Both the position numbers and the translations under genes were made by a program. DNA of 64,000 bases, taken from assembly GCA_000196815.1 (NCBI GenBank), contig FP929003.1:2379501-2443500 (forward strand), in the 5' to 3' direction. Below, in pieces: positions 25,805 through 37,393 of this stretch (positions are counted from its first letter, which is position 1; each line of letters starts with the position of its first letter). Below the pieces are notes generated by a model. That model was not told the DNA's origin and did not search any database. It was given only the letters and a program-made list of their open reading frames with translations. The stretch is from Nitrospira defluvii. GTDB lineage: Bacteria > Nitrospirota > Nitrospiria > Nitrospirales > Nitrospiraceae.

Positions 25805-26863
25805 ATGACCCCCCCTGCGTCCATGACGATTCTTGGCATCGAAACATCCTGCGACGAGACTGCCGCAGCGGTGCTCGACGGTGAAGGCCATGTTCTGGCC
25901 AACGTGATTTCTTCCCAGCACACCGTCCATGAACGGTTCGGCGGGGTGGTGCCGGAGTTGGCCTCACGTGCTCATATTCAAAATGTGGATCACGTCACAC
26001 GTCGGGCTCTGGACGCAGCAGGCCTCACCTGGCAGGACCTCGGCGCCATCGCCGTCACCCAAGGTCCGGGCCTGGCCGGCGCCCTGCTGGTGGGTATTAG
26101 TTACGCCAAATCCTTAGCCTACGCGCTGGGCATTCCACTGGTGGGCGTAAGTCACCTCGAAGGCCACATCGCCTCAGCCTGGATCGACCGCCCGTCATTC
26201 CCGAGAACCTGCGTCGTGTTGATCGCGTCGGGCGGACATACGCATCTCTTCCACGCCGACGAATCCGGCGGGCTCCGCCTCATGGGACGAACGATCGACG
26301 ATGCTGCAGGCGAAGCATTCGACAAGGGCGCACAAATGCTCGGGCTCGGATACCCGGGTGGACCGCTCATCGACCAAGCGGCCAGAAAAGGCAATCCGGT
26401 GACCGTGCGATTTCCTCGATCGCGCGTGAGAACCGGACAACTGGATTTCAGTTTCAGCGGTCTCAAGACAGCCTTGCTCTATCATCTGCAACGCATGGAT
26501 CAGCAAGCCATCACCCGACAACAGGCCGACCTGGCGGCGGGGTATCAGGAAGCGATCGTGGACGTGTTGATCCGTCAGACATTCGCGGCCGTGCGACAGG
26601 CGGGCGTCTCAGCCCTTGCCGTTGTCGGCGGGGTTTCGGCCAATTCTCGGCTGCGAGCACGATTGACGGAGCGGGCAGGCGAGGAGGGGATTGAATTGGG
26701 CCTCCCGGCCCTCTCATACTGCACAGACAATGCAGCCATGATTGCGGCGGCAGGGCAGCGGGCCCTGGAGCAGGGCAGGCTGGCATCCTTCGAGTGCGAG
26801 GCGATGCCGAATTGCGCGTTGCCGGCATCGTCCGGGGGCGGAACGGTGCGTCGCAAATCCTAA
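25805..26863 (+). CDS. tsaD: tRNA threonylcarbamoyladenosine synthase subunit TsaD
   Basis: 352 residues of the Kae1/TsaD ASKHA family that transfers the threonylcarbamoyl group to A37 of ANN-decoding tRNAs. Motifs: ILGIETSCDETAAAV at the N-terminus, the metal-binding HLEGH, VVLIASGGHTHL, DDAAGEAFDKGAQMLGLGYPGG, and VVGGVSANSRLR. Two Met codons (25805 and 25823) are possible; neither has a clear ribosome-binding site. The hflX coding region follows within 26 bases, so the genes are probably cotranscribed. Confidence 0.93.
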   Translation: MTPPASMTILGIETSCDETAAAVLDGEGHVLANVISSQHTVHERFGGVVPELASRAHIQNVDHVTRRALDAAGLTWQDLGAIAVTQGPGLAGALLVGISYAKSLAYALGIPLVGVSHLEGHIASAWIDRPSFPRTCVVLIASGGHTHLFHADESGGLRLMGRTIDDAAGEAFDKGAQMLGLGYPGGPLIDQAARKGNPVTVRFPRSRVRTGQLDFSFSGLKTALLYHLQRMDQQAITRQQADLAAGYQEAIVDVLIRQTFAAVRQAGVSALAVVGGVSANSRLRARLTERAGEEGIELGLPALSYCTDNAAMIAAAGQRALEQGRLASFECEAMPNCALPASSGGGTVRRKS

Positions 26864-26888
26864 CCGTCGAGTCTCAAGGAGCATCACC

Positions 26889-28583
26889 ATCCCTACAATT
26901 CACGGGCACGTCACCGGTCTCAAAGCCAGTCACCTCGCGGCATTGGAGCGACTCTATCGACGACGTGTGCCGTCCTCACTCGTGATCACTGCCGAGCTCG
27001 CGCGCACGACCTGCCAGTTGACGCGGGAGATTCGACGTCCCATCGGTCTCCTGATCACTCGCCGCGGTGTCGTCGAACAGGTACTTGTGGGAGCCGGCTG
27101 CGCACCGACCTTCGAATCGCTGGTAAAGTTCAGAGTCGGATCGCATGCCCTCCGCGGTCTGCGGTTGATTCGCACCCATCTCCATGATGACCCGCTGAGC
27201 CAGGACGATTTGACCCATCTGGCGCTCCTGAGATTGGACCTGATCGGGGTCCTGGGTGTAGACGAAACGGGCGAGCCCAGCCTGCTGCATCTGGCGCATC
27301 TGCTCCCGCCCAATCAGCAGGGAGAAGTCTGCCGGCTCCTGAAGCCGGTTCCGTTCCATGATCTCGACCTTCAACTGGACGTTTTCCTCCATGGGCTCGA
27401 TAGCGATTTGCAGCGAGCGGACAGCACGCATGACGTCGCCGGAGGGAGCGAATCCGCCATTCTGGTCAGCGCGGCTCCCAGAAGTCACGCCGAGCAGGAA
27501 GAACATTTGGAAGAGCTGAAAGAACTGGCCGAATCCGCCGGGGTCCGCGTGCTGGATCGCATCGCCCAGCGCACCCACGAAGGGTTCGAGCGATACTTGC
27601 TCGGAAAAGGCAAACTGAAAGAGGTTGTGATGCGCGCGCTCCAGAAGGGAGCCGACCTCGTGATCTTCGACCAGGATCTCGCCCCGGCGCAAGCCCGCGC
27701 CATTTCCGAGGTCACGGATCTCAAAGTGATTGATCGCACGCAGCTCATCCTGGATATTTTCGCCCGGCGCGCCCATACCCGTGAAGGCAAAGTTCAAGTG
27801 GAGCTGGCTCAGCTTCGGTATCTTCTGCCGCGACTGTCCGGGCATGGCACCTCGTTGTCGCGCCTCGGAGGCGGAATCGGCTCACGCGGTCCCGGTGAAA
27901 CCAAGCTGGAAACCGATCGCCGCCGCATTCGCGATCGCATCGCGCACCTGGAGCGGGAAATCGACGACGTGGCCCGCCATCAAGATCAGCGCCGATCCCG
28001 ACGTGTGCGCCAGGGGCTTCCGATCCTTTCCATCGTCGGCTACACCAATGCAGGCAAATCGACGCTGCTCAACTCCCTGACCCACAGTCAGATCCCGGCC
28101 CAGGATCGTCTCTTTGAAACCCTCGACACGACAAGCCGCCGCCTTCGTTTTCCTCATGATCGCGAAGTCATCGTGACTGATACGGTGGGGTTCATCCGGG
28201 ATCTGCCCAAAGATCTGGTGGGAGCCTTCCGCACCACACTGGATGAATTGCGGGATGCCGACCTACTCCTGCATGTGGTCGATGCGTCGGCCCCCAACGT
28301 CGATCAGCAGATCACCGCCGTCGAAACCGTCTTACAATCGCTCAACTTGGACACGATTCCCCGCGTGATGGTCCTGAACAAGTGCGACCGCCTCTCGGCA
28401 CACGAAGCCGGCGTTCTCTGCGAGCGGTATCACGCAATCGGAATCTCGGCGCCGAACCGTGAGACGCTGCGCCCATTGATCGCGCACCTCGAAACCCTCT
28501 TGCCCGCCGTCCCGACACTGCCGGGACAGGAGGAAGATCCCGACCAGCCGCCCCAGGACCTGGCGCTTGCATCTCACTCCTGA
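26889..28583 (+). CDS. hflX: GTPase HflX, apparent ATC start
   Basis: About 564 residues. HflX is a ribosome-associated GTPase that splits stalled 70S ribosomes. A long N-terminal domain begins PTIHGHVTGLKASHL and precedes the nucleotide-binding helical domain (ILVSAAPRSHAEQEEHLEEL), the GGxGxRGPGE linker (RLGGGIGSRGPGETKLE) and the G domain with GYTNAGKST, DTVGFI and NKCD. The conserved N-terminus leaves no ATG, GTG or TTG: AAGGAG (26876-26881) is followed seven bases later by ATC (26889), which I take as the start. The next upstream ATG (26742) lies deep in tsaD and would add protein-unlike sequence. Confidence 0.85.
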   Translation: MPTIHGHVTGLKASHLAALERLYRRRVPSSLVITAELARTTCQLTREIRRPIGLLITRRGVVEQVLVGAGCAPTFESLVKFRVGSHALRGLRLIRTHLHDDPLSQDDLTHLALLRLDLIGVLGVDETGEPSLLHLAHLLPPNQQGEVCRLLKPVPFHDLDLQLDVFLHGLDSDLQRADSTHDVAGGSESAILVSAAPRSHAEQEEHLEELKELAESAGVRVLDRIAQRTHEGFERYLLGKGKLKEVVMRALQKGADLVIFDQDLAPAQARAISEVTDLKVIDRTQLILDIFARRAHTREGKVQVELAQLRYLLPRLSGHGTSLSRLGGGIGSRGPGETKLETDRRRIRDRIAHLEREIDDVARHQDQRRSRRVRQGLPILSIVGYTNAGKSTLLNSLTHSQIPAQDRLFETLDTTSRRLRFPHDREVIVTDTVGFIRDLPKDLVGAFRTTLDELRDADLLLHVVDASAPNVDQQITAVETVLQSLNLDTIPRVMVLNKCDRLSAHEAGVLCERYHAIGISAPNRETLRPLIAHLETLLPAVPTLPGQEEDPDQPPQDLALASHS

Positions 28584-36733: not shown

Positions 36734-37393
36734 ACGTCTCAGGCCACCCGACACTCGCCCCTGAAAGGGCTCTATCTCGTGCTCGACCCCACGGTCAGGC
36801 CGGATCGCCCGCTGCCCGATCTCCTGCGCGAAGCAGCCGCGCACGGTGTCCGGCTCTTTCAATATCGAGACAAACAGGCCACGATGAGAGAGGCCTATGC
36901 GAAGGCACTCGCGCTGCGTCAAGCCGCTAGCGACGCCGGCGCCCTCTTGATCGTCAACGATCGTTGCGATTTGGCCATGGCCGTAAACGCGGACGGGGTA
37001 CACCTCGGGCAGGACGACCTTCCCATTGTCTACGCCAGACAATTACTGGGACCTGAAAAAATCATCGGACTCTCGACACACAACGCCACTCAGGTACGCG
37101 AGGCCGTCACCGCACAGCCCGACTACGTGGGGTTCGGCCCGATTTTCAGTACGTCCACAAAAGCGGATCACGACCCGGTGGTCGGTCTGGAAGGATTGCG
37201 CGCGGCACGCGCGTTGACCTCGCTGCCGATGTTTGCAATCGGCGGTATTACGGCTGAGTCGCTCGGTGAAATTATGGCGGCAGGGGCGGATGGCGTGGCG
37301 GTGATCTCTGCGATCCTCAAGGCTCCGGACCTCGGCGCGGCGATCCGGGCATTCCAACAGCATGTGCCCACACCAGATTCGCAAGCGCTCTGA
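36734..37393 (+). CDS. thiE: Thiamine-phosphate synthase ThiE, non-ATG start
   Basis: About 219 residues if started at ACG 36734. Joins the thiazole and pyrimidine moieties of thiamine. Features: first barrel strand GLYLVLDP, RLFQYRDKQ, LLIVNDRCDLAMAVNADGVHLGQDDLP, YVGFGPIFSTSTKADHDPVVGLEGL, and AIGGIT. The first standard start codon in frame is GTG 36779, but that would cut off the beta-strand GLYLV. Upstream in frame there are only CTG (36761) and ACG (36734), the latter six bases after AGGGAG; no ATG, GTG or TTG exists back to the TAA at 36716. The 3' end overlaps convergent bioD by 77 bases. Confidence 0.85.
   Translation, partial: TSQATRHSPLKGLYLVLDPTVRPDRPLPDLLREAAAHGVRLFQYRDKQATMREAYAKALALRQAASDAGALLIVNDRCDLAMAVNADGVHLGQDDLPIVYARQLLGPEKIIGLSTHNATQVREAVTAQPDYVGFGPIFSTSTKADHDPVVGLEGLRAARALTSLPMFAIGGITAESLGEIMAAGADGVAVISAILKAPDLGAAIRAFQQHVPTPDSQAL

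Follow-up and report, generated by a model that had tools for sequence, protein, structure and literature searches.

The long-form hflX gene of Nitrospira defluvii appears to begin at AUC, a start codon class conserved in most of its phylum that may tie HflX synthesis to IF3

HflX splits stalled or idle 70S ribosomes. It has been described as an alternative recycling factor, with IF3 holding the split subunits apart (PMC9067457). Conserved non-standard start codons have been established for few bacterial genes. Conserved AUH starts (AUU, AUC or AUA) are already known for infC, pcnB, ccpN and cvfC1, and have been proposed for lepA in two genomes. The non-standard starts of infC and of Streptomyces sigR are reported to be repressed by IF3 (PMC5472188). 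According to PMC10158994, IF3 requires Watson-Crick pairing at the first two bases, weak third-base pairs are excluded by IF3 in vitro, and EF-G together with RRF dismantles complexes carrying unstable initiator tRNA (for IF3 see also PMC4770234).

The hflX gene described here resembles infC in its start codon class, its good Shine-Dalgarno sequence, its deep conservation and a product that acts on ribosomal subunits, but that product is HflX and not IF3, so that control by IF3 would be cross-regulation. Streptomyces sigR likewise has a conserved non-standard start without encoding IF3; it differs in that the codon is GTC rather than AUH, was described within one genus and was shown experimentally (PMC5472188). 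In Staphylococcus, ccpN (AUA) and cvfC1 (AUU) combine conserved AUH starts with strong Shine-Dalgarno sequences as hflX does, and these starts lower output, with a medium-dependent effect in ccpN; the genes are unrelated to hflX, however, and their starts were shown by ribosome profiling and reporters (PMC13009471). The AUU of Escherichia coli pcnB limits output, and its product, unlike HflX, is no ribosome factor (cited in PMC1780047 and PMC13009471). For lepA, encoding a ribosome-acting GTPase, AUU has been proposed from sequence in Borrelia burgdorferi and Bacillus licheniformis (PMC1780047), these being two single genomes, whereas the hflX start is conserved phylum-wide. No report of an hflX gene with an AUU/AUC/AUA-type start was found in the literature searched, outside which most subscription journals lie.

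The stretch of DNA analysed (the window) comprises 64,000 nucleotides, positions 2,379,501–2,443,500 of the one-contig genome (4,317,083 bases) of Nitrospira defluvii. In window coordinates, the start region of hflX contains the following features:

25805–26863, forward strand: tsaD (TIGR03723, 411.8 bits; open reading frame list)
26742–26744, forward strand: TTG within tsaD, the sole upstream ATG, GTG or TTG in frame with hflX; rejected as start
26876–26881, forward strand: AAGGAG, putative Shine-Dalgarno sequence of hflX (4 nt or more matched at the same place in 148/149 relatives having ATT, ATC or ATA)
26889–26891, forward strand: ATC, predicted start codon of hflX (ATC in 27/27 of the genus; ATT, ATC or ATA in 149/168 phylum genes)
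26889–28583, forward strand: hflX, long form, 564 codons plus stop (NCBIfam TIGR03156, solved HflX structures, Pfam)

The original prediction had placed the start of hflX at an ATC seven bases after AAGGAG, with no ATG, GTG or TTG in frame between that codon and position 26742 inside tsaD. Both elements are present, separated by the 7-nt spacer CATCACC, and the sequence bears out the lack of canonical codons in this interval. The stop codon of tsaD occupies 26861–26863, leaving 25 nt to the ATC, and the first ATG, GTG or TTG downstream in frame is the TTG at 26943, codon 19 of hflX. Two nearby codons were considered and set aside: an in-frame ATC at 26883, two codons upstream, is spaced by 1 nt from AAGGAG and is not conserved, and the column of ATT 26898 (codon 4) varies between ATT, ATC, GTC, GTT, GTA and CTT. 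When the region around the start was folded in three genus members, none surpassed shuffled sequences (z = −0.05, 0.57 and 2.17).

The product scored 449.3 bits against the NCBIfam equivalog model TIGR03156, above the curated cut-off of 216.75, which makes it a member of that group. The match spans residues 190–536, that to E. coli HflX covers residues 188–507 of the same protein, and the Pfam domains GTP-bdg_N, GTP-bdg_M and MMR_HSR1 were found, with nothing recognised before residue 204. From its homology to HflX proteins of solved structure, this protein would be expected to split 70S ribosomes in a GTP-dependent manner. Residues 1 to ~187 (window 26889–27450, forward strand) precede the part held in common with E. 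coli HflX, and this N-terminal portion matched no Pfam or PDB sequence. A short hflX paralogue in the same genome (L008) offers an ATG at its N-terminus; within this genome, therefore, the weak-start trait belongs to the long form.

To compare the codon among relatives, hflX was sought in 29 genomes of the genus and found in 27 (E ≤ 1e-80), all 27 having ATC at this position, which rules out a sequencing error. Eight of them carry an in-frame stop 18–108 nt before the ATC and no ATG, GTG or TTG after that stop. Since the upstream frame is closed, a longer protein is ruled out in these eight species and, to judge from the reading frame, only the ATC or a codon within the conserved N-terminus can serve as the start.

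The survey was extended to 168 distinct hflX genes of the phylum: the family (in which 164 genomes had a match) supplied 74, three further families of the order 40, and the remaining class and phylum 54. We chose the genes so as to take in the whole genus and, outside it, a range of other genera and families, favouring complete contigs; many of the genomes sampled are fragmented, and the named ones are mostly metagenome assemblies. Two second pieces of counted genes (L202, L207), one locus lacking the N-terminus (L206) and loci L036–L051, which repeat genus genomes or are near relatives of these, were left out of the counts. The aligned codon was ATT in 93 genes, ATC in 41 and ATA in 15, giving 149/168, a count of genes and not of independent events. 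Tallied by family (148 genes), 24 of the 32 families read have an ATT, ATC or ATA codon, including families in which the upstream stretch appears intergenic.

For 71 of the 149 genes the frame contains no ATG, GTG or TTG between the upstream stop and the end of codon 12, and the start must therefore be non-standard; the stop lies within 12 codons in 50 of these. A conserved internal isoleucine would account for ATT, ATC and ATA at this column but not for stops just upstream. Shine-Dalgarno matches of 4 nt or more, located 4–12 nt upstream, occur in 148/149 genes, compared with 9–39/149 at six shifted offsets. Taken together, the comparison shows a predicted AUU, AUC or AUA start with a good Shine-Dalgarno sequence to be the rule for long-form hflX in this phylum. 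It also strongly supports the original prediction, for which an ATG at this position in relatives would have been damaging: ATG occurs in 6/168 genes. We regard the AUC at 26889 as almost certainly the start of hflX.

The other 19 genes comprise the six with ATG, one with GTG, one with TTG and 11 others; a canonical start is thus found at the codon itself in eight and within two codons in five more. Among the 11, an ATG or TTG follows one or two codons downstream in five, codon 2 is ATC in another, and one is ambiguous. The remaining four belong to two families; their codon 2 is ACG and, judged by eye, a stretch resembling a Shine-Dalgarno sequence lies ~8–9 nt before it. This ACG appears to be the hflX start in families f7 and f10 (L147, L150, L151, L174; labels f1–f34 are specific to this analysis), and the three f7 genomes in which infC was read have ATG as its start.

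The original prediction had drawn a parallel with infC, and that gene served as a yardstick. The parallel proved apt: infC of this genome (G000:C1, near 362,939, reverse strand, locus L180) also starts at ATC, after GAGGTGACCT. In the family, infC was matched in 60/60 genomes and 30 loci were taken, all 30 having ATC with a GAGGTG-type Shine-Dalgarno sequence. hflX shares with infC-type AUH genes both the AUU/AUC/AUA start and its conservation beyond close relatives. Among 30 genomes picked to provide contrast, 21 had ATC, ATT or ATA as the start of infC and six had ATG, with three ambiguous; a further 30 from the order and class yielded infC in 28, with ATG in 21 (all family f3) and ATC in seven.

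A feedback loop shared by the two genes would be expected to make their start classes covary, and this was not seen in families f3 and f12. In f3, infC had ATG in all 23 cases found, with a changed N-terminus (L311, L312, L315–L332, L336, L286, L290; no infC match in genomes G201 and G208), yet hflX had ATT in 28/30, the exceptions being ATG in G192 and TTG in G185. The reverse holds in f12, where infC had ATC in 4/4 and hflX ATG or GTG in 4/4, which also marks the weak hflX start as dispensable. These patterns indicate that this start has been kept and lost independently of that of infC. The f3 pattern argues against a shared infC–hflX feedback loop. Control of hflX by IF3 in the manner of infC, as suggested in the original prediction, is plausible and would not require feedback through the weak start of infC itself.

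How such a start would act can be proposed from the initiator tRNA and from work in other bacteria. A search for initiator-type anticodon loops with the pattern GGGYTNATNACCC, which covers only the usual anticodon stem, gave two matches, one being tRNA-Met (anticodon CAT) and the second no tRNA. This ordinary initiator (CAU) would read the AUC of hflX with a third-position mismatch, and initiation there would consequently be weak. Judging from E. coli and Streptomyces, IF3 would hold down such weak initiation, giving a low basal level of HflX and more of it when there is too little IF3 for the 30S subunits present. HflX synthesis would then depend on the survival of weak initiation complexes, and hence on IF3 and recycling capacity. 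Translation of hflX is very probably throttled by its AUC start and may be tied to IF3. That the weak start is under selection to throttle HflX seems to us well supported by its conservation, AUU, AUC or AUA having been kept although a single base change would yield AUG. That IF3 is the sensing factor, an argument carried over from other bacteria, has about an even chance. The account as a whole, of an AUC start that is weak, throttles HflX and is tied to IF3, is considered likely. That the gene of a ribosome-splitting factor has kept a weak start in most of the phylum suggests that recycling is controlled through the choice of start codon.

Besides IF3, HflX itself may exert such control, which would make hflX a sensor of ribosome splitting, with excess HflX dismantling initiation complexes on its own messenger. 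Complexes at AUU, AUC or AUA would be those most easily dismantled by IF3 and the recycling factors, an effect seen in vitro for EF-G and RRF, and hflX output would rise when splitting and anti-association capacity were short. This would be comparable to the feedback of infC and of the prfB frameshift, but for ribosome recycling, and would explain why hflX kept its weak start where infC lost its own. We put it forward tentatively, as a rather unlikely form of the control.

The alternative that survives best is that the weak start merely fixes a constant low level of HflX with nothing being sensed, as proposed for E. coli pcnB. It accounts for the interchange of ATT, ATC and ATA and for a weak hflX start beside either an ATC or an ATG in infC. 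A weak Shine-Dalgarno sequence or a GTG or TTG start would lower output as well, however, and what has been retained is a good Shine-Dalgarno sequence and the codon class discriminated by IF3, with GTG or TTG in 2/168 genes. A constant level is therefore a serious possibility, of somewhat less than even probability.

Throttling at an independent AUC start is much to be preferred over a tsaD–hflX frameshift fusion or a start dependent on coupling to tsaD. The 25-nt distance and an hflX frame that is open into tsaD in this genome would suit either arrangement. The relation of the frame to the upstream stop varies within the genus, however, with the frame closed in the eight members described above, and the start class is kept also where the upstream stretch appears intergenic. 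Fusion or dependence on coupling is thus very improbable, while coupling to tsaD as a helper in Nitrospira is possible.

The rarity of such starts in the genome was assessed with a census, in which 464 kb around hflX were compared with 400 kb of a roughly collinear, inverted region of the genus member G021; roughly a tenth of the genome was sampled in this way, and the method can miss cases. Of 268 homologous open reading frame pairs, 168 had an aligned ATG, GTG or TTG at the conserved N-terminal edge, ATG being present in both genomes in 113 of these. A further 54 had one such codon per genome, unaligned, 21 had one in one genome only and 13 lacked a sharp edge. The remaining 12, hflX among them, had no ATG, GTG or TTG near the edge in either genome, and in two of these, hflX (ATC) and thiE (ACG), a Shine-Dalgarno sequence precedes the aligned non-standard codon. 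The lepA pair had a false edge, its ATG lying further in, and the other cases were judged by eye to be shadow frames or edges inside genes.

A special initiator tRNA with anticodon GAU or AAU, making AUC or AUU an efficient start, would account for tolerance of such codons, but the one tRNA found with the usual anticodon-stem pattern carries CAT and ATG prevails in the aligned pairs of the census; this explanation is highly improbable. Two other start sites may be dismissed as having next to no chance. Initiation at the TTG at 26742 would give a protein 49 residues longer, overlapping tsaD; no canonical codon precedes this TTG in the open frame, and a standard gene finder would choose it, but the stops in the eight genus members and the closed frame in the 71 phylum genes refute it for the relatives. 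Canonical codons are likewise available in frame downstream, at TTG 26943 or later, but their use would remove the conserved stretch HGHVTGLKASHLAALERLYRR, the best ATG/GTG/TTG column between −14 and +40 (column 27) holds such a codon in only 35% of genes, and the Shine-Dalgarno sequence sits 7 nt before the ATC. Gene finders allow only ATG, GTG and TTG, so the starts of both hflX and infC are likely to be misplaced in these genomes.

Beyond the phylum, a scan of contigs returned only records titled Nitrospira, Nitrospiraceae or, in one case, 'Nitrosospira', and no relative was found in the viral contigs searched. In a plasmid collection, two records covered at least 80% of the query, both from Fusobacterium. 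One Fusobacterium long-form gene, the sole gene read from outside the phylum, has an ATG start aligned about three codons later.

The thiE gene noted in the census lies downstream of hflX:

36734–37393, forward strand: thiE (TIGR00693, 217.8 bits)

There is no ATG, GTG or TTG from its upstream stop (TAA, 36716) to codon 16, and the ACG at 36734 follows AGGGAG. This ACG is kept in the genus members G021, G023 and G014, and the other 27 thiE loci read in the family have GTG, ATG or TTG near the N-terminus.
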